Positions 4,876 to 19,709 of a DNA stretch of 27,276 bases are shown in pieces. Location of the stretch: the IMG/VR virus record IMGVR_UViG_3300046167_000378, positions 1-27,276 of that record; one strand, 5' to 3'. The first letter of the stretch is position 1. Each line of letters opens with the position of its first letter. The stretch is from a virus. A program made the position numbers and the translations under genes. Under the pieces are notes generated by a model. It did no database searches. It was not told the DNA's origin and was given only the letters and a program-made list of their open reading frames with translations.

Positions 4876-6888
4876 ATGAGCGAAGGCTTTAAGGAAGAGA
4901 TCGACCACGCAGGAATGGACTTGGATATTGCCGATTGGGTGATAGACCAAGCTAATGAGTGGCGTGACTATTACGATTCTAACTACGATGACAAGTTTCA
5001 GGAGTACTACCGTCTGTGGCGTTGCCAGTGGGCTGAGGAAGACAAGACTCGTGATTCCGAGCGTAGTCGCCTTATCGCACCCGCTACCCAGCAGGCTGTA
5101 GAATCTAACGTAGCCGAGATCGAAGAGGCTTCATTCGGTAAGACAGGTGTTCTCTTTGATGTTGAGAACCCCGGACTGGAGAATGACCCTCAGATCGAGG
5201 TACTACGTAACAACCTCACAGAAGACTTCGAGTTAGGTCGCATTCGTGCGGCTGTAGGTGAAGTACTGATTAACGCTGCTGTATACGGTACAGGCGTTGC
5301 TGAGATCAACATCGAAGAGCAGATGGTCTACACACCAGCTACCCAGCCTATGATGGACGGAGCACTGGAGGAAGTAGGTGTACAGGAGCAGTACCGTACA
5401 ATCGTAAAGATGAACCCTCTGCAACCACAGAACTTCCTTATCGACCCAACTGCTACGTGCATAGAGGACGCTAAGGGCTGTGTTGTTGAGGAGTACGTTT
5501 CCCTGCACTCGGTTGAGATGCAGCAGGAGTCAGGCGTATATGACAGTACTGTGGTAGTAGGAACTGCCGCTGCTGATGACGATATCGAAGCAGACCGTGA
5601 GCTTACCACTGAAGCTACTGACCGTGTACGTTTGACTAAGTACTACGGCCTTGTACCTCGTGAAGCCCTTGAGAATCATGGTGTAGACGTAGAATCCGAA
5701 GATATGTATGTAGAGGCTATCGTGGTTATTGCCAACGAAGGCCAGCTACTTAAGGCTATTGAAAGTCCTTATATGTGTAAAGATCGCCCTATTGTGGCGT
5801 TCGCTTGGGACGTAGTTCCTAGTCGCTTCTGGGGGCGTGGGGTTTGTGAGAAGGGCTATATGAGCCAGAAAGCCCTAGATGCGGAGATGCGCGCACGTAT
5901 TGACGCTCTGGGCCTTACGACCCACCCCATGATGGGCGTAGATGCTACCCGCGTCCCCAGAGGAGCTAGTTTCGAGGTTCGCCCCGGTAAGATGTTTATG
6001 ACCAATGGCAATCCTCAGGAGATTCTTACTCCGTTCCACTTCGGACAGGTTGATCAGATCACCTTTGCTCAAGCAGGTGCATTACAGGAGATGGTACAGA
6101 GTGCCACAGGTGCTGTTGATTCAGCAGGTCTGGCTGGAGCCATGAACGGGGACGGTACAGCAGCAGGGGCCTCTATGTCCCTCGGTGCTATCATCAAGCG
6201 CCAGAAGCGTACTCTCGTTAATTTCCAAGAGAACTTTATGATGCCGTTTGTGCGTAAGGCAGCACAGCGTTACATGCAGTTCGATCCAGAGCGTTACCCT
6301 GTAGGGGCTTACAAGTTCCGAGTAATCAGTTCACTAGGCGTTATAGCCCGTGAGTACGAGGTAGGACAGCTTACACAGCTTATACAAAGTCTGCCTCCCG
6401 GAACCCCAGCACACACAGCTATCATGGCAGCTATCGTGGAGCACTTACAGGTAGCCAACCGAGAGCAAGTTGTTGAGGCGATTAACCAGCCTCCAGAGCA
6501 AGACCCCGAGGCAGCAAAGCTCGCCAAGCAGAAGCAGGAGATGGAGATACAAGTACTCCAGAGCCAGATATCTGTACTACAAGGTCAGGCTGCTGAAGCT
6601 AACGCTAGAGCACAGAAGTACATGGTTGAGGCTGAACTGGCTCCGAAAGAGACTATTATGAAGTACTCAGACATGAACAATGATGGTGAGATGGATAAGG
6701 ACTTCGAGCAGAAGATGCGATTGGCAGACCTTGATATCAGATACCGTCAGTTAGAACAACAAGAAAAGGACGAGCAGACATTCGAGAAAGAAACCGCCGA
6801 AGCAGAGCTTATACGTCAACTTACTGGACAGGGAGAGAGCAGTGGAAGACCTAACATTCCTAGCACTACTGAAGCGCCTACAGGATAG
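4876..6888 (+). CDS. Portal (head-tail connector) protein
   Basis: This 670-aa protein would form the dodecameric ring through which DNA enters and leaves. The N-terminal part (ADWVIDQANEWRDYYDSNYDD), the central RPIVAFAWDVVPSRFWGRGV block and the FQENFMMPFVRKAAQRYMQ helix are as in large P22-like podophage portals. About residues 540-650 form a long charged helix (LAKQKQEMEIQVLQSQISVL and on), fitting the extended C-terminal barrel of such portals. Within it, residues 599-610 (DMNNDGEMDKDF) resemble an EF-hand calcium loop, although the last ligand is out of place. The gene directly follows the large terminase and overlaps the next gene by 47 bases. Identity is strong; P22-like architecture is inferred from length. 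Confidence 0.88.
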   Translation: MSEGFKEEIDHAGMDLDIADWVIDQANEWRDYYDSNYDDKFQEYYRLWRCQWAEEDKTRDSERSRLIAPATQQAVESNVAEIEEASFGKTGVLFDVENPGLENDPQIEVLRNNLTEDFELGRIRAAVGEVLINAAVYGTGVAEINIEEQMVYTPATQPMMDGALEEVGVQEQYRTIVKMNPLQPQNFLIDPTATCIEDAKGCVVEEYVSLHSVEMQQESGVYDSTVVVGTAAADDDIEADRELTTEATDRVRLTKYYGLVPREALENHGVDVESEDMYVEAIVVIANEGQLLKAIESPYMCKDRPIVAFAWDVVPSRFWGRGVCEKGYMSQKALDAEMRARIDALGLTTHPMMGVDATRVPRGASFEVRPGKMFMTNGNPQEILTPFHFGQVDQITFAQAGALQEMVQSATGAVDSAGLAGAMNGDGTAAGASMSLGAIIKRQKRTLVNFQENFMMPFVRKAAQRYMQFDPERYPVGAYKFRVISSLGVIAREYEVGQLTQLIQSLPPGTPAHTAIMAAIVEHLQVANREQVVEAINQPPEQDPEAAKLAKQKQEMEIQVLQSQISVLQGQAAEANARAQKYMVEAELAPKETIMKYSDMNNDGEMDKDFEQKMRLADLDIRYRQLEQQEKDEQTFEKETAEAELIRQLTGQGESSGRPNIPSTTEAPTG

Positions 6889-7330
6889 AGTCGATTCAAT
6901 ATCCAAGAAGGACGGGCCTAAAGGCGAGCAAGGAGCAGCAGGTAAAGACGGTGTAAGCATAAAAGGCGAGAAGGGTGACACCGGAGAGATGGGTGTTGGT
7001 CAAGACGGTCGTGATGGAGACGAAGGCCCCGCAGGTAAGGACGGAGAAGACGGGGTTGGTATTACAGGGGTTACCCTTGGGATTGATGACTCGCTTATCT
7101 TCCAGCTATCTAACGGAGACGAAGCCAGTGTAGAGCTACCTCTTACAGAAGGCTCTGGTAATACCGTAATCAACAAGATTAGCGGTGGAGGCAGTGGTGG
7201 TGGCAGCGGTTCAGGTATCCAAGGGCCACAAGGCCCAGAAGGGCCAGCGGGTAAAATGGGTGATGTTGATGGCGGTCGAGCTGACAGCGTTTACACAGGT
7301 GATCAAGTTATATCAGGAGGGAGTGCATGA
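6842..7330 (+). CDS. Collagen-like virion protein, 162 aa
   Basis: GTG 6842, with GGGAG just upstream, opens inside the 3' end of the portal gene in another frame. After a short helix (EDLTFLALLKRLQDRVDSI) come Gly-X-Y triplets at about residues 25-70 (GPKGEQGAAGKDG and on). A small beta segment follows, then a Gly/Ser linker (SGGGSGGGSGSG) and a second GPQGPEGPAG stretch. The end, with MGDVDGGRADSVYTGDQVISGGSA split around DGG and SVY, resembles the C-terminal tail common in phage head-fibre and decoration proteins. Such triplet repeats form trimeric triple helices. Coupling to portal translation suggests a head or neck fibre, but the location on the virion is inferred. It overlaps the following gene by 4 bases. 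Confidence 0.7.
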   Translation: MEDLTFLALLKRLQDRVDSISKKDGPKGEQGAAGKDGVSIKGEKGDTGEMGVGQDGRDGDEGPAGKDGEDGVGITGVTLGIDDSLIFQLSNGDEASVELPLTEGSGNTVINKISGGGSGGGSGSGIQGPQGPEGPAGKMGDVDGGRADSVYTGDQVISGGSA

Positions 7331-9879
7331 GTTCTATTATCCAACAGCGCAGAGACTCAGCAACTCAATGGGCTTCCGTCAACCCTATCTTAGCGAATGG
7401 CGAAATTGGCGCGGAGATTGACACCCACAAGTGGAAGTTGGGTGATGGTTCTACTGCATGGAATTTACTGCCCTACTCTACAGGTGGTCAAGGTGAGCAA
7501 GGAATTCAAGGAATTCAGGGCGAGCAAGGCGAACAAGGTCTTCAAGGTGATCAGGGTATTCAGGGCATCCAAGGTGAAGCTGGCGCTGACGGTTCTGATT
7601 CAGTAGTTCCCGGCCCTGAAGGGCCACAAGGCAGTCAAGGAATACAAGGTGAAAAAGGAGAGACTGGAGATACAGGCCCTAGCGGATCGGATAGTACAGT
7701 TCCGGGGCCAAAAGGTGACACGGGTGATCAGGGGCCAGCAGGACAAGATGGTGAAGACGGATTGCCGGGACAAAACGGTTCCAATGGAGCACCGGGCCAA
7801 GATGGTGAAGACGGCCAAGACGGAGCTACGGGTGGAGATGGCCCTCAAGGTGAGCAAGGCATACAAGGTATACAGGGCATACAGGGTGAGGCTGGAGACA
7901 CAGGCCCTGCTGGGCCAACAGAAGTTTCCTCTGACGCTAACAACATAGCGGTACTAGGTGCTGACGGTAAAATCTTTGTACCTGAACATGTTGGAACTCC
8001 TAGCCTAGACCTTCAGTGGTTCTTCCAAGATAGCACTGCCGGAGAGCCAAACCCTAACTTCTTTAGGACAGACGAGCGAGAAATTAACGACATCACTACA
8101 CTTGATCTATCGTGGGTTTCGTTCCCTAACAGAGAGGTTGCTAACCTCCTTAGCCAGCTTAGGCAAGGCGACAAGATATACATACAGCAAAACAACGCTG
8201 AAGCTAACTACGGTAACTTTGACCTCACTGGTGACCCAGTAGACAACGGTACTTACTGGACTATCCCTGTCAACGCCTACGATGATGGAGCACGTTTCTC
8301 TATAGATTCTGATTGTGTATTCCTGTTCTGGCGTGGTGCTTCTGACAGTGGTGATGGCGGTGGTGGCTCTGATGAAAACGCATTGGCATTTGCCAAGGGT
8401 GCAGGTCTAGCTGTAGAACAAGGCTTACTGGCGGCAGACGGACAACCCGCTAAGACGGTACTAGCCGTTGGCGCTACTAACACAGGTAAGGTGCAGGGCT
8501 GTAGCTTAGGCGATGGTAACGTGGTCGAGGTCTACGCCAGTGGTGCTGACTACAACAGTGCTACCGTGCTGTACCGCGAGTTCATGGGCGCGGGTGAGCC
8601 TATCTGCTTTACGGGTCTGAGTACCGGAGCAATCATAACGTCCACTCAAGGCTTCTATGGCATGAGCGAGCAGGTAAACGGTAGCTACGAAAGCCCTATG
8701 CCGCTGCTAAGTTTAGGCTTGGCGTTCACAAGTACGTTTGTTTACTGTTTCCGAAACTCACAAAACTTCCCCGGCTTGGGTGACAGCACAGGGCAGATCA
8801 CGATTATTAATGGTTCGCTTCCCTCTACAGTGACACTCACTAGAAACGGCAACGAAGTTAGTGGTCAAGCCCCTAGAGACTTAGCCCCCTTTGAGGCTTG
8901 CTACTTTTACAGTGACGCTGTAGGCGAGTATTTAATTGAAGCTACAAGCCCTGTCATGGCGTGTGTTCAGGCATACATGGGGTCTAACCCACCTTTAGAA
9001 GTAGGTGATTCGCCTGATAATGCTCAACGATTCTATGACGCACGACTCGTTATGCCTTTGACTAATGACGGTATGACATGGCCGCGATCTGGATTCGTGA
9101 GTGCACCATTTGCGGGTACGGAGTCTAAGTACTACGTGCGCGATGGTGTGACTGGAGACTTCCCAACGGTAAGCCCCGGCTCTCCCGTAGACTTCGATGC
9201 TAGTGGCAGTACAGGTGCAGCCGACCAAGACTACGAGCCAAGGGGTTGTACACGCCTAAGAGTAGCAGGTCTGGTATCAGCGTACTCTGGTGCTGACTCA
9301 GCGGGTCTAGAGGCATCGCCTATGATTCCTGTGAGTGCTATGTCTCAGGTTGTAGCACAGCCCTTTACTATTGCTGACAACGGTGACGGAGGTAACTCAG
9401 GTGTCGCCATTGGCAGTCCTTACGAGGGAACCGCTAAGGTCTACCAGTGGAACACAGCGACAGGCGTTGCTGAGTTGGCCTACACAGTACCGCTAGCTAG
9501 AGGCACCACAGGGCAGGGTATAGCCCCGGCAACACCGGAGGATCAATACATCCCGTGTGCTGGCATGGTGGCTAACGAGACATCACTGGGCGCTACTGAT
9601 CCATCAGTGATTGAGCTGGTAGGCACGTTAAACCCCGGCTATATCGTAGCTGATGTGCCTATTACGGTGGTTGCTCAGAACGGCGACCCCGGCACGATCC
9701 CACCAATACGTTCCCAGAATGGCACAACCACTTCAGGGATTGTATCGGATGATGACGAGACTCTGATGCTTGGTATGACACCAACTCAGAAGAAAGCTGA
9801 GATCACTGAAGACGCAGACGGTTTCACTCGTAAGAGGGTTATCGACAACACAGGCGGCATTACGTGGCCTTTAACATAA
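7327..9879 (+). CDS. Large collagen-like fibre with Mtd-like N-terminus (probable receptor-binding protein)
   Basis: The 850-aa product begins MSSIIQQRRDSATQWASVNP and then LANGEIGAEIDTHKWKLGDG, matching the short N-terminal fold found in Mtd-type and many other phage fibres (RRD...W...NP.L..GEIG.E.DT...K.GDG). Residues about 53-205 are Gly-X-Y triplets broken by two SDS(V/T)VPGP inserts, predicting a triple-helical shaft. Next is a fibre domain with LDLQWFFQD, GDKIYIQQNNA and NGTYWTIPVN. The last ~500 residues are beta-rich and Gly/Ser/Thr-rich and are probably the receptor-binding head; I do not recognise that part. There is no S74 chaperone, so trimer folding must rely on its own C-terminus or another factor. 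It lies between two other collagen-like genes. Confidence 0.75.
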   Translation: MSSIIQQRRDSATQWASVNPILANGEIGAEIDTHKWKLGDGSTAWNLLPYSTGGQGEQGIQGIQGEQGEQGLQGDQGIQGIQGEAGADGSDSVVPGPEGPQGSQGIQGEKGETGDTGPSGSDSTVPGPKGDTGDQGPAGQDGEDGLPGQNGSNGAPGQDGEDGQDGATGGDGPQGEQGIQGIQGIQGEAGDTGPAGPTEVSSDANNIAVLGADGKIFVPEHVGTPSLDLQWFFQDSTAGEPNPNFFRTDEREINDITTLDLSWVSFPNREVANLLSQLRQGDKIYIQQNNAEANYGNFDLTGDPVDNGTYWTIPVNAYDDGARFSIDSDCVFLFWRGASDSGDGGGGSDENALAFAKGAGLAVEQGLLAADGQPAKTVLAVGATNTGKVQGCSLGDGNVVEVYASGADYNSATVLYREFMGAGEPICFTGLSTGAIITSTQGFYGMSEQVNGSYESPMPLLSLGLAFTSTFVYCFRNSQNFPGLGDSTGQITIINGSLPSTVTLTRNGNEVSGQAPRDLAPFEACYFYSDAVGEYLIEATSPVMACVQAYMGSNPPLEVGDSPDNAQRFYDARLVMPLTNDGMTWPRSGFVSAPFAGTESKYYVRDGVTGDFPTVSPGSPVDFDASGSTGAADQDYEPRGCTRLRVAGLVSAYSGADSAGLEASPMIPVSAMSQVVAQPFTIADNGDGGNSGVAIGSPYEGTAKVYQWNTATGVAELAYTVPLARGTTGQGIAPATPEDQYIPCAGMVANETSLGATDPSVIELVGTLNPGYIVADVPITVVAQNGDPGTIPPIRSQNGTTTSGIVSDDDETLMLGMTPTQKKAEITEDADGFTRKRVIDNTGGITWPLT

Positions 9880-10133: not shown

Positions 10134-11195
10134 ATGTCAACTATATCACAATTCACACCAGCTAAACTAAAGGCTTGGATAGAGCTGTACTCTGCTGGCG
10201 CAACTGGGCCAGAAGGCCCTGAGGGGCCTCAAGGCCCTGCTGGTTCTGATGGAGCTGATGGTGCCGATGGCGCTGACGGCGATCAAGGCCCAGCGGGAGC
10301 TGACGGCACTAACGGTACAGATGGCACTAACGGTACAGATGGCGCTGACGGCATTGATGGTCAAGATGGAGCACCCGGAGCTGACGGCGTTGACGGGGAA
10401 GACGGCGATACCATGTGGGATACCGTTACAGGTGGTATCAACTACGCTGGCGGGTTGGTTGGTATCGGTGTTACTACACCGGGGCAGAGTCTAGATGTTA
10501 ATGGCGGTATCGCTGTATCTGGAGGAATATTCCACGCTAGTGATATTTACCAGTATCGCTCTGGGGCAGATACCTTAACATGGAGGCTCGGTGACCCCTC
10601 TTACACTTATGTGTCACTGCAAAGGCAGGTTGACGGTTCACCGCTGTTGACCAATGCTTCAGGTGATTTGGCGCTAGGCTCAAGCGGCACCGAGAAGATG
10701 CGTATCGACAACAGCGGCAACGTCAAGATAAGCACTGGCAACTTAGAGCTATCAAATGGCGGTGGCTGGTATCAGTCCGATGCTAGTTGGGTTCGCTCTT
10801 TAAACGACAAGGCTGTATACAACGGTTCATCCAGTGCTAACGCATTCACAACCCCCGGTGACTTCACTGCTGGTTACTCAGATATGCGTCTCAAGACCCA
10901 TAGAGGGATGATTAAGGATGCGCTAGACAAGGTCTGTACGTTAGACGGCTTCTACTACGAGCGTAACGAGAGGGCCATAGAGCTAGGCTACACAGGAGGA
11001 GAACTCCGAGTAGGTCTGAGCGCACAGCAGGTTAAGGAAGTCCTACCAGAGATCATCAAGAGTGCTCCAGTCAACATTGACCACGGAACAGACTACATGA
11101 CTCTAGACTACGAAAGGGTTGTACCTTTGCTGGTAGAAGCTATTAAGGAATTGAAAGAGGAAGTGGAGGAGTTAAAGAATGGCACTACCAACTAG
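10134..11195 (+). CDS. Collagen-like fibre with C-terminal S74 chaperone (copy 1)
   Basis: After a short N-terminal anchor (STISQFTPAKLKAWIELYSAG), residues about 25-95 are Gly-X-Y triplets rich in GADGADG and GTDGTNG, followed by a beta-structured shaft and tip. The C-terminus is an intramolecular chaperone of the Peptidase_S74 family: YSDMRLK, with the S249-D250 catalytic pair, then VGLSAQQVKEVLPEI and LDYERVVPLLVEAIKEL. In this family the chaperone drives trimerisation and then cuts itself off before the Ser. The final ~30 residues form a charged coiled coil. AAGGTG precedes the ATG. The 3' end overlaps the next gene by 17 bases. A perfect 18-base tandem duplication (10305-10340) lies in the triplet region. 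Confidence 0.85.
   Translation: MSTISQFTPAKLKAWIELYSAGATGPEGPEGPQGPAGSDGADGADGADGDQGPAGADGTNGTDGTNGTDGADGIDGQDGAPGADGVDGEDGDTMWDTVTGGINYAGGLVGIGVTTPGQSLDVNGGIAVSGGIFHASDIYQYRSGADTLTWRLGDPSYTYVSLQRQVDGSPLLTNASGDLALGSSGTEKMRIDNSGNVKISTGNLELSNGGGWYQSDASWVRSLNDKAVYNGSSSANAFTTPGDFTAGYSDMRLKTHRGMIKDALDKVCTLDGFYYERNERAIELGYTGGELRVGLSAQQVKEVLPEIIKSAPVNIDHGTDYMTLDYERVVPLLVEAIKELKEEVEELKNGTTN
10305..10340 (+). repeat. Perfect 18-bp tandem duplication in the collagen region
   Basis: GGCACTAACGGTACAGAT occurs twice in direct succession (10305-10322 and 10323-10340). It keeps the reading frame and adds two Gly-X-Y triplets. Such repeats change length readily by slippage or recombination. Confidence 0.85.
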
Positions 11196-15304: not shown

Positions 15305-16621
15305 ATGTCAATAACCTACAACATAACCACGAACTTTGGAGCTAAAGACAGTCTGCCTTCTAATGACCCTAACAAGGTTATCCGAGGAAGCGACCATACA
15401 GTTGAGTTCCAAGCCATCCAGACTGCATTTCAGCAAGCTGTCTCGTCAGCTAATCCTACATTCACAGGCGTTGCAACTTCACCTAGCTTTGTTGGTGCTT
15501 TGACAGGTGACGTAGTTGGTAACGTAACAGGAGATATTTCTGGTAATGCCAGCACTTCTGATCAGTGGTCTACCGCCCGTACAATTACCTTCACAGGTGA
15601 TGCTACAGGTACAGTAGACATTGACGGGTCAGGTAATGTGTCCTGCGCTTTGACATCACAAGGTTCTACTTACACCCACCCTAGCTATGCAACAGCTAAC
15701 ATTAACACCTCTGGTGCTGAAGTAATTGACGTAATCAACACAACAGATGAAGGCCATATCAGCAGCATGTCCAAAAGGACTATGACTCTGGCTGACCTCG
15801 GTTACACTGGTGACCCAGCAGGTAATAACTACGTACACCCTACACACCCCGGTGACGACATAAACCTAGACACAGGCGCTCTAACAGGCGCTACTGTGAT
15901 CTCTGATCTGGACTTCAACGTAACTACGGATACCTTGGGTCACGTAACAGACGCTAACGCTACAGTTGCTACCCGTAGCCTTACACTTGCTAACCTTGGC
16001 TACACCGGGGCGACCAATGCCAATAACTATGTTCACCCTACTTCTTCAGGTAACAAGCACGTACCTTCTGGTGGATCAGCAGACCAGTACCTTAAGTACT
16101 CAGCTAGTGGTACAGCGGTATGGGCAGACCTTCCCGCAGGTAGTTCTTATACTCACCCAACCTACAGCGCCGCTAACGTCAACACGTCAGGTGCTACCGT
16201 AGTAGACCAGATTCAAACCAACGATACTGGTCATGTTACGTTTATGAACACACGCACACTGACCGCAGGTAACCTCGGGGCCTTGAAGGACACCACAGAT
16301 ACCTTCACTGGTACACTCTCTGTTACAGGGTCGGTAGTAGCCACAGGTAACATCACTGCCTACTCGGATGCTAGATTGAAGACTGACGTAGGGGCCTGTA
16401 TGGGGCTGTCTGCGGTAGAAGCCATGAACGGCTACAACTACACTATGAACGAAGAGATATGCGCTGGAGTGATCGCACAGGAGCTAGAAGAGGTAGCCCC
16501 AGAGCTTGTGATCGACAACGTAGACGGATTCAAATCTGTAAACTACATGGGCCTTACTGCGTACTTGATTGAGGCTGTGAAGGACTTATCAGCTAAGGTG
16601 AAAGAACTGGAGGCTAAGTAA
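15305..16621 (+). CDS. Tail fibre with YxHPT repeats and S74 chaperone (copy 2)
   Basis: The 438-aa product opens with SITYNITTNFGAKDSLPSND, a fibre anchor type, then Thr/Gly/Asp-rich short repeats (GDVVGNVTGDISGNAS). Four imperfect repeats headed by Y(T/V)HP(T/S) lie at about residues 121-330, some with GH(I/V) and RT(L/M)TL near their ends, a layout seen in trimeric fibre shafts. The C-terminus is a Peptidase_S74 chaperone: YSDARLK with S354-D355, AGVIAQELEEVAPELV and MGLTAYLIEAVKDL. It differs from the first S74 fibre (10134-11195) in lacking collagen triplets. The stop overlaps the next start (TAATG). Confidence 0.82.
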   Translation: MSITYNITTNFGAKDSLPSNDPNKVIRGSDHTVEFQAIQTAFQQAVSSANPTFTGVATSPSFVGALTGDVVGNVTGDISGNASTSDQWSTARTITFTGDATGTVDIDGSGNVSCALTSQGSTYTHPSYATANINTSGAEVIDVINTTDEGHISSMSKRTMTLADLGYTGDPAGNNYVHPTHPGDDINLDTGALTGATVISDLDFNVTTDTLGHVTDANATVATRSLTLANLGYTGATNANNYVHPTSSGNKHVPSGGSADQYLKYSASGTAVWADLPAGSSYTHPTYSAANVNTSGATVVDQIQTNDTGHVTFMNTRTLTAGNLGALKDTTDTFTGTLSVTGSVVATGNITAYSDARLKTDVGACMGLSAVEAMNGYNYTMNEEICAGVIAQELEEVAPELVIDNVDGFKSVNYMGLTAYLIEAVKDLSAKVKELEAK

Positions 16622-17064
16622 TGACAATACAATCTAGTGGCATCATTACGATGGAAGACCTTCAGGACGAGTACGGGGGTGGCAACCCTGTCGGTCTAGT
16701 GGAGTATTATAGAAACGGGTCATACGTGCCTAGCACGGTCTATACAAATTATAACTTCGCTTACGATGTCTACAGTTCTTCGAATCAGACTTATTGGTAT
16801 ACAGATTCGACCACGGAAACATCAGGTATTTATGTTGGCGGTACTCTAATAAGGAGTGGTGCTAGCTACTATAGCACGACTTATACAAGGAACATGGGAG
16901 GTGGTACTAGGACGTATAATAAGTCATCATTTAAGGGATCGTATTTCCAGTTCAATTACTATGCCTATAACAGGTATGACACTATAGCAGAGAGTGTAAA
17001 TCAGAACGTACCTACTTCGGGTGCTATTAGCTTATCAGACTTCTACGGCGGGAGAAAGACATAA
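16621..17064 (+). CDS. Short virion protein of the SG-x-IT / FYG type (copy 2)
   Basis: This 147-aa product starts at a TAATG overlap behind GGAGG. The N-terminus (IQSSGIITMEDLQDEYGGGN) and the C-terminus (VPTSGAISLSDFYGG) both carry the motif seen at the start of the 11179-11790 protein. The middle is remarkably rich in Tyr, Ser and Thr (YSSSNQTYWYTDSTTE) and is likely a beta domain. Like copy 1 it directly follows an S74 fibre gene, so the two fibre-partner pairs look like one duplicated cassette. It overlaps the next gene by one base. Confidence 0.65.
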   Translation: MTIQSSGIITMEDLQDEYGGGNPVGLVEYYRNGSYVPSTVYTNYNFAYDVYSSSNQTYWYTDSTTETSGIYVGGTLIRSGASYYSTTYTRNMGGGTRTYNKSSFKGSYFQFNYYAYNRYDTIAESVNQNVPTSGAISLSDFYGGRKT

Positions 17065-18464
17065 TGGCAATGTTTGACGGGTTTTCAGATGAGGACTTCA
17101 AGAAAGCAATCGAAGCCAACCCTGAAGCATGGGGTAAGCCCCTAACAAGTGGCCTTAACAACGGTTCTCCAGCAGGTAATCCGGGCTTTAGTAGTGTAGG
17201 CGGCAGCGGTGGAGGTCTTGTATGGACTGGTGATCAACCTTTCACTCAGGCAGATAAGGATCAGTTCGCTAACTGGTCTAACGCCCAGACTGGCGGGGAT
17301 ATGACAGGAGAATTTGAAACACAGACGCTCCAAGATCATTACAAAAGAGAGATGGAACGCTACGGGCCGGGGATGAAATACTCCGATTCCTTTATGAAGG
17401 TTGTTGACGGCACTGACAGCTATTTAGGTCAGAGCTATCAGGCTGCTAGAGGATTAGATAACGCTGTAGATTTGGATTTCGGGGTAGGCATGAGCACGAA
17501 GAAGGCTCAGGAACAACAGATTCTACAGAACGCAAAGGCAGAGGCAAACGCAACCGTACCCGTAGGGGAAAGCAATCTAAACCCAACAGCTAATCAAGGC
17601 ATGCTTACGCAGCCAGTTACGGAGCTTAACCAAAACTTCCTCGCTGACTACTATAACACTGGTGCTGGGCAGGGTATGTTTAAGGGCGATGCAGCGGCAA
17701 ACCTAGCAGCTAACACTACAGTCAGTTCAGGTGTCTCCAATGTAACTGGTGGTGACGTATCAAATGAAAACTGGGATAGTGCTATGTCTGAACTTCAGAC
17801 TTTAGAGCAGGAAGCCCTAGACCAGATTAACTACAACAGGGATAACCAAGACCACGGATACCGTAGCGATGCTATGGCAGATGGGCAGTATAACCAAAAG
17901 GCTTTGGCGATTCTAGAGAAGTATGGAATCCCTGTACGGCAAGACGGTGCTTACCTAGACCTTGGCCCTACACTAGGTGCTGTAACAGACCGTGTGGTTA
18001 GTGGGGGTGGTCAAGGACTTGGGACGTACTCTAGAGGTACAGGCGCTTCAGCTACTGACGCTCTGCTTGGAAACCCTCTCTTTACGGCGATGGTTAGTGC
18101 GGTAACTGCTGGAGTCGGAGGCCCAGTACTGGCTGGGCTAGCAGGTGCCGCTCTGGACGGTGGTGTGGGTGAGGGAGGTATGACTAGCGGTAACCTGATA
18201 AAACTTGCTTACGATATGGCTAAACATGAAGACCCAAAAGACATCAGAGACGGTAACAGGGAGCCTGAGGGAGAACTAACGGCTCCGGGGTACGAAGATC
18301 AAATTGGCCCTTGGATAGGCAACACAGCAGTTAAGTCAAGAGATGGCTGGCACTGGGAGAAGGACGGGAAAGGTAGCTGGAAAGCTGTCAAGGATGAGGT
18401 TGATGTAGTAGAAGAAGACGGTGGTGGTGGCTGGTTCAACATCTACCAACCCTACACCAGATAG
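17064..18464 (+). CDS. Virion protein of unknown function, 466 aa
   Basis: The frame starts at a TAATG overlap. The first 130 residues are polar (MAMFDGFSDEDFKKAIEANP) and the middle has Asn/Gly-rich stretches. Residues about 330-375 form a Gly/Ala hydrophobic patch (LFTAMVSAVTAGVGGPVLAG) that could cross or insert into a membrane. The C-terminus is charged (WHWEKDGKGSWKAVKDEVDV) and then stops after a Gly-Gly-Gly-Gly-Trp segment. The location between fibre and adaptor genes suggests a tail or ejected protein. Its end overlaps the next ORF by 44 bases in the +1 frame, without a good start for that ORF, so the true product may be longer. The family is not recognised. Confidence 0.65.
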   Translation: MAMFDGFSDEDFKKAIEANPEAWGKPLTSGLNNGSPAGNPGFSSVGGSGGGLVWTGDQPFTQADKDQFANWSNAQTGGDMTGEFETQTLQDHYKREMERYGPGMKYSDSFMKVVDGTDSYLGQSYQAARGLDNAVDLDFGVGMSTKKAQEQQILQNAKAEANATVPVGESNLNPTANQGMLTQPVTELNQNFLADYYNTGAGQGMFKGDAAANLAANTTVSSGVSNVTGGDVSNENWDSAMSELQTLEQEALDQINYNRDNQDHGYRSDAMADGQYNQKALAILEKYGIPVRQDGAYLDLGPTLGAVTDRVVSGGGQGLGTYSRGTGASATDALLGNPLFTAMVSAVTAGVGGPVLAGLAGAALDGGVGEGGMTSGNLIKLAYDMAKHEDPKDIRDGNREPEGELTAPGYEDQIGPWIGNTAVKSRDGWHWEKDGKGSWKAVKDEVDVVEEDGGGGWFNIYQPYTR

Positions 18465-19062
18465 TCCAGCCCCTAACCCAGCAGGTAGTTCAGGTGGTGA
18501 AGACCTTGATGAAGACTTCGTCTGGAGTGACGTAGAGCAGGATGAGGATGCTATCTTCGGTGATGACTTTGAAGCACCCCCTGAGATAGGCGAGGACACA
18601 GATACGGAGCTAGGCCCTGACGACCCTGCGTGGTGGAAGGATATACTAGCGGGTATTGTTATTCCTAACGATGACCCATTTGAAGACACAACTGACGACA
18701 GCTCAGAGGGTTTAGAAGGTGATGAGGATGTCGTTGAAAGCGAAGTTACTGGAGATAACCCTGATGGGACTACTAGCCCTGACGGGACTACTACTGATGT
18801 TCCCACTGATAATCCTGACAATACTGGGACGATTCCTAACACGGGAACAGGAACGACTGGCCCCGGAAACGGCCCCGGTAATGGCCCCGGCGAAGGTGGT
18901 GGTGAAGTAGGCGGTGAGCTAGGCCAGTCCTTTGCATCTGGCGGGGGTGGTACTGAAGCTGAGTGGACTGAACTGTTCCCTTACACCAAGATCACAGCCT
19001 TGCAGAAGAAGAAGCTACTGCCAATGGTTAGGTACATTAAACAAGCAAGAGGAATGGTATGA
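18421..19062 (+). CDS. Acidic virion ORF, 213 aa, possibly a frameshift extension of the previous gene
   Basis: The only possible starts are three consecutive GTG codons (18421-18429), with no convincing Shine-Dalgarno (only GAAGAAGAC). No ATG occurs before the last few residues. An in-frame TAG at 18409-18411 closes the frame upstream. The product is extremely acidic over residues ~25-105 (GGEDLDEDFVWSDVEQDEDA). A Gly/Pro/Asn-rich linker follows, and then a basic C-terminus (LFPYTKITALQKKKLLPMV). It ends in an ATGA overlap with the adaptor gene. It is either an independent gene started at GTG by coupling, or the +1-frame continuation of the 17064 gene. Confidence 0.55.
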   Translation: MVVAGSTSTNPTPDSPAPNPAGSSGGEDLDEDFVWSDVEQDEDAIFGDDFEAPPEIGEDTDTELGPDDPAWWKDILAGIVIPNDDPFEDTTDDSSEGLEGDEDVVESEVTGDNPDGTTSPDGTTTDVPTDNPDNTGTIPNTGTGTTGPGNGPGNGPGEGGGEVGGELGQSFASGGGGTEAEWTELFPYTKITALQKKKLLPMVRYIKQARGMV

Positions 19063-19709
19063 CATACCTAGAAGTAATAAACGAAGTGCTGACCCGCCTA
19101 CGTCAAGACCCTATCGTGGGTATCATTGGCGAGGAAGACGAGTCTGCCAAGATGGTAATCAAGCTAGTGAATGATGCCAAGACCAAGGTGGAGAATGCCC
19201 ATAACTGGAGTGTTCTCCGTAAGGAATGGGAAATCACTACTGTCGATAGCCAGAAGAGGTATGACCTTCCTGACTCGCATAACTACATCAAGGTGGAGTC
19301 AATGTCTAACGAAGACGCAGGATACTGGCTTGACCAGACCAGCACTAAACAGATGAAGCAGAAGCACTGGGGAGCGCAATCCACTGGTTCAGTTCAGTTC
19401 TTCACTGTATCCGGTGCTGCCTCTAACGGTAACGCTACTGTCGATGTATGGCCTCTCCCTGAGGCAGGTGTCAGCTTGTCCGTTGAGGGGTTCCAGAATC
19501 AAGATACTCTTACAACCGATGACGATATCTTGCTAGTCCCTGCCCTGCCTGTTATCTACGAAGCCTTAGCTATGGCAGCTAGAGAACGTGGTGAAGTAGG
19601 CGGTCAGACTTCTCTTGAGATATTTGGAGTAGCCAAGCAATACCTGATGGACGCAGTAGCCTTAGATGGTGCGCTGTCTCCTCTGGACAACATCTGGTAC
19701 TCAGTCTAA
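19059..19709 (+). CDS. Head-tail adaptor / tail tubular protein A-like
   Basis: The 216-aa product begins TYLEVINEVLTRLRQDPIVG, has the helical NDAKTKVENAHNWSVLRKEW block and continues with TTVDSQKRYDLPDSHNYIKV. This is the pattern of podophage adaptors related to T7 gp11 and P22 gp4, which form a twelve-fold ring under the portal. The C-terminal helix PALPVIYEALAMAARERGEV is also typical, and the length (about 200) fits. It precedes the nozzle protein, in the order expected of this family. The start overlaps the previous stop (ATGA). Confidence 0.8.
   Translation: MTYLEVINEVLTRLRQDPIVGIIGEEDESAKMVIKLVNDAKTKVENAHNWSVLRKEWEITTVDSQKRYDLPDSHNYIKVESMSNEDAGYWLDQTSTKQMKQKHWGAQSTGSVQFFTVSGAASNGNATVDVWPLPEAGVSLSVEGFQNQDTLTTDDDILLVPALPVIYEALAMAARERGEVGGQTSLEIFGVAKQYLMDAVALDGALSPLDNIWYSV

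Follow-up and report, generated by a model that had tools for sequence, protein, structure and literature searches.

A long phage gene preceding an SU10-like adaptor gene is probably one reading frame that a net single-base indel breaks within a stretch of glycine codons

Programmed +1 frameshifting in Listeria phage PSA takes place at CCC-U with a pseudoknot or a stop lying immediately 3′ of the site, and in phage Mu a −2 shift also leads into the +1 frame (PMC5009743). The PSA genes expressed in this way are those of the capsid and the tail shaft. The window analysed here is the whole of a virus contig of 27,276 bases with terminase, portal and capsid genes (phage packaging and head), and it resembles PSA in having, in a phage structural-gene region, a CCC followed by U near the junction of two frames. 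It differs from the PSA sites (PMC5009743) in that no signal of this kind was found, by a fold model without pseudoknots, and in that the relatives are unshifted. A second point of comparison is the tail gene set of SU10 (Kuravirus). The gene directly downstream of the interrupted one (19059–19709, plus strand, overlapping it by 4 bases) encodes a 216-aa product that matched the adaptor family of that phage (PF24175, SU10_adaptor, E 7e-16), whereas the interrupted gene itself matched nothing in 50,697 phage records, Pfam or PHROGs.

The locus is formed by two ORFs of the plus strand, one of 466 aa with an ATG start (17064–18464) and one of 213 aa with a GTG start (18421–19062), the latter in the +1 frame relative to the former and overlapping it by 44 bases. 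Within the overlap there are GTG codons at 18421, 18424 and 18427, and a CCC at 18450–18452 is followed by T at 18453. All these elements were found where the initial annotation had placed them. That annotation had proposed a ribosomal +1 slip at CCC-T directly before the stop, giving a fused product of 640 residues. Both of these details had to be corrected: the CCC is separated from the TAG by the three sense codons TAC ACC AGA, and the ORF positions add up to about 665 residues, of which frame 0 contributes 456 and frame +1 contributes 209. We favour, with a probability of about 0.9, the reading that a net gain or loss of one base in the Gly-codon run at about 18429–18435 disrupts a single gene of about 665 codons (17064–19062). 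The 466-aa and 213-aa ORFs are two halves of that gene: both are homologous to single continuous genes, and the change of frame could be located; the indel would send frame 0 into the peptide WFNIYQPYTR and a stop.

Both halves matched the same IMG/VR records. In L001 one continuous ORF of 782 aa (5001–7349) spans them both, and a 788-codon open frame occupies the same place in the contigs of L001, L002 and L003; these are 71% identical to the 466-aa ORF over its residues 1–224 and, for the downstream part, reach 77% in the best segment. The more distant L011 and L012 carry a single ORF of 763 aa, which has the C-terminal box in common with the 213-aa ORF, and L005 has one frame, open to the 5′ edge, with the block SRDGWHWEKD..WKAVKDE..DGGGGG. 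Thus, of the earlier interpretation, the proposal that a single protein is encoded across both ORFs was borne out by relatives with a single continuous gene (L001, L002, L003, L011 and L012), which the initial annotation had suggested looking for, and the slip at CCC-T was not. The 782-aa and 763-aa homologues (IMGVR_UViG_3300007637_000015 and IMGVR_UViG_3300008050_000124) share with the window the C-terminal box and the position before the adaptor gene; the former also has the N-terminal block and the acidic linker, and the likeness of the latter lies mainly in the C-terminal region. They differ from the window in having one reading frame and a different middle part. Judged by its homology to the C-terminal part of these longer proteins, the 213-aa ORF is real coding sequence and not a chance frame.

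The N-terminal part of the interrupted gene (17064–18431, plus strand, frame 0) was delimited by homology to L001/L002/L003, L004 and L005. It comprises, in order, a conserved N-terminal block, a variable middle, a Gly/Ala hydrophobic stretch, the block SRDGWHWEKDG..WKAVKDE and the beginning of an acidic linker. The C-terminal part (18433–19062, plus strand, frame +1), delimited by homology and by codon-position bias, contains an S/T/P/N linker, an acidic low-complexity tether and the conserved C-terminal box (FASGGGGTEAEWTELFPYTKITALQKKKLLPMVRYIKQARGMV; 18931–19059, plus strand), which was defined from alignment A5 and 17 IMG/VR records. Around the junction, frame 0 reads ...VVEEDGGGG followed by WFNIYQPYTR and a stop, and frame +1 reads GSTSTNPTPDSPAPNPAGSSGGEDL...; the counterparts are EEDDGGGGSTTDSS...GSSGGEDL in L001 and VVEEESGGGSTAPNPMP...GSSGGENL in L004. 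The DNA alignment to L001 showed a net one-base offset in the Gly run. Considering how L001 and L004 read across the junction, in protein and in DNA, the switch from frame 0 to frame +1 therefore lies at about 18429–18435 (plus strand), so that the CCC-T at 18450 is already past it, within the frame-0 tail (18432–18464, plus strand; CCC-T at 18450–18453) that has no counterpart in the relatives.

This position bears directly on the slip at CCC-T, in which the peptidyl-tRNA-Pro would re-pair from CCC to CCT and translation would go on into the acidic frame. CCC-U is indeed a +1 site in Listeria phages (PMC5009743), and at this site the frames overlap, with a coding downstream frame, as a +1 frameshift would require. 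However, the proposed site (18450) and the homology switch (about 18429–18435) do not coincide, and a slip there would place WFNIYQP where the relatives have an aromatic-free S/T/P/N linker. Shift site and frame change are not conserved in the relatives either, all 10 complete box-bearing genes being single-frame. Nor did the junction show a stimulatory element, whether downstream structure, an A-site stop or slow codon, or an upstream Shine-Dalgarno (SD). The A-site codons are ordinary among the genes counted (202 uses of TAC for the CCC-T site, 96 of TGG), and CCCT occurs in the zero frame 10 times in those genes. The downstream RNA (18432–18551) gave no stable fold in a model that leaves pseudoknots outside; shuffled versions averaged −30.5 kcal/mol and the sequence itself reached −24.7 kcal/mol (z +1.65), so that it folds worse than they do. 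A slip at CCC-T is scarcely credible, and it was rejected on the upstream position of the switch, the lack of conservation and the lack of stimulators.

Lineage-specific recoding at the Gly-codon run itself, by a +1 or a −2 shift that bypasses a genuine indel, would agree with the place where the frame switch was located and with the coding constraint that persists downstream on the branch of the window. We consider it very improbable. We know of no described shift motif that fits GGU-GGC-UGG; no stimulator was found, pseudoknots being outside the model; and a degenerate pattern of the junction retrieved 0 stretches from the other viral contigs of IMG/VR, a search set from which records very near the window may be absent.

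The three GTG codons raise another explanation, a natural split into two genes in which the 213-aa protein would be started at a GTG by translational coupling. They do overlap the upstream gene, and the downstream half has kept its constraint. The calculated anti-SD duplexes were nevertheless weak, at −1.0, −1.9 and −4.1 kcal/mol for 18421, 18424 and 18427 respectively (random positions of the same window: median −2.9, lower quartile −4.6 kcal/mol), and the statement of the initial annotation that the downstream frame has no Shine-Dalgarno holds in substance. These GTGs are simply Gly codons read out of frame, and the 10 complete box-bearing genes found elsewhere are again single-frame. On SD strength and single-frame relatives reinitiation at GTG was rejected, and we regard a natural split as hard to accept.

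Differences were compared by codon position in gap-free blocks only, the low-complexity part of 18661–19059 being unreliably aligned. Over 119 gap-free downstream codons, the window differed from L001 at 5, 6 and 23 first, second and third positions, and from L004 at 4, 2 and 16. Changes found only in the window were distributed 0/1/5, a small count (n = 6). Third positions predominate, as would fit a downstream part that was coding until very recently. On these alignments, such constraint agrees with a recent break, whether an error or a fresh mutation; recoding or reinitiation that kept the downstream half translated would leave an identical pattern.

One observation against the reading of a one-gene indel is that L004 (IMGVR_UViG_3300046167_000580), the closest relative of the window in several genes, is broken in the same gene, which may indicate a biological tendency to break. 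L004 is the sole broken one among the 17 box-bearing records and interrupts the box gene at other places than the window. Its frame breaks, within 5001–9702, cluster in two genes, the box gene and the counterpart of the 556-aa gene located after the adaptor gene, and direct alignment revealed indels. Most of the other genes compared are intact in L004, the homologues of the portal, capsid, 272-aa and 437-aa genes aligning in one frame. Since the damage extends to the neighbouring 556-aa homologue, we infer that L004 carries an error-rich patch and does not constitute evidence for a natural split.

In the window, the other genes that were compared by tblastn with the L001 and L003 contigs presented no clear frame change, and a single local event therefore suffices. 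A single indel in a 27-kb contig is unremarkable. Sequencing error had been listed among the alternatives in the initial annotation, and an error of sequencing or assembly is, in our judgement, the likelier origin of the indel; a true mutation in the sampled phage seems rather doubtful. It is highly unlikely that the indel is genuine and fixed in this lineage and that the +1 frame is regularly reached by ribosomes (or RNA polymerase) traversing the Gly run, with both a short and a long form as products. If this were true, a short hydrophobic form devoid of the docking box and a long form would come from a gene that is read straight through in the relatives. With the net one-base indel as the preferred explanation, a candidate programmed frameshift is removed and the two ORFs are to be treated as one gene.

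A by-product of the comparison, perhaps weightier, is that long modular proteins of this kind, composed of a hydrophobic Gly/Ala region, an acidic tether and a short box, recur across uncultured phage contigs. The C-terminal box alignment A5 found 17 IMG/VR records, several of them near-duplicates and thus representing fewer than 17 lineages. Ten carry a complete gene in a single frame, with open frames of 630–828 codons (L001, L002, L003, L011, L012, L117, L119, L120, L121 and L125); in six the frame is open to the contig edge with no stop (L023, L116, L118, L122, L123 and L124), and one is broken. The box pattern, W.ELF.Y....T..QKK.L.P.., is present in the 213-aa ORF of the window in the same alignment, and the window gene immediately precedes the adaptor gene and overlaps it slightly, as in the family; it departs from the family in being split and not in one continuous frame. 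Placed by homology, the window gene is read as a damaged member of this box-bearing family.

A count by position covered the best 80 adaptor-gene loci plus the earlier loci, with 29 of 87 dropped for having less than 2 kb before the adaptor gene, L021 omitted as lying on the same contig as L001, and near-duplicate contigs counted separately. In 48 of the 58 loci, a single frame of 500 or more codons runs up to the start of the adaptor gene. The other 10 were the window and L004, two loci with two serial genes (L063 and L087), and L027, L066, L069, L075, L089 and L095, which had other genes at that place. The serial genes (L063, 1379–4239; L087, 2882–5004) seemingly end in similar short C-terminal peptides, and a duplication is possible. 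Most pre-adaptor proteins had a hydrophobic stretch, often Gly/Ala-rich, and a net negative charge in their last 200 residues. Single-linkage blastp joined 63 of 70 rows, the window halves being separate rows, in one cluster, a linkage that low-complexity sequence may have aided.

The intact protein represents a recurrent family that seems to lack annotation and whose genes immediately precede that of the adaptor. Searches of the GenBank phages (50,697 records) by tblastn with each window half, the 782-aa homologue, the adaptors of the window and of two other loci, and the end of the L117 gene gave no match, and the family members tested likewise had none in those records. The L001 protein matched neither Pfam nor PHROGs, L011 had no match in PHROGs, and the only Pfam match of the L117 protein was to collagen repeats. 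Other pre-adaptor proteins had PHROG matches to collagen-like fibres and tape measure proteins, which seem to reflect low complexity and were set aside. A profile search of genome contigs with the adaptor alignment found no relative.

The predicted structure of the intact L001 homologue had a mean pLDDT of 39.9, with 640 of its 782 residues below 50, values that disorder could explain, as could a poor alignment. Among the few parts predicted above disorder were two C-terminal helices in the box (748–754 and 762–780; blocks of pLDDT 61–76). One may picture a protein with a hydrophobic Gly/Ala region whose helical C-terminal box, at the end of a long, flexible and acidic tether, might dock on the adaptor or the tail. 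Our tentative guess, prompted by the predicted structure, by the hydrophobic stretch and by the way the gene overlaps that of the adaptor, is that the intact product might be virion-associated, tethered to adaptor or tail by its C-terminus and perhaps ejected or membrane-active. A protein deprived of its tether and box would probably be non-functional, although we hold this with low confidence.

Elsewhere in the window, the 850-aa product of 7327–9879 carries collagen repeats together with an N-terminal Mtd domain (PF18454). Two genes (10134–11195 and 15305–16621) both end in a Peptidase_S74 (endosialidase chaperone) domain, the first of them also with collagen repeats, which makes several fibre-like proteins in the same genome.
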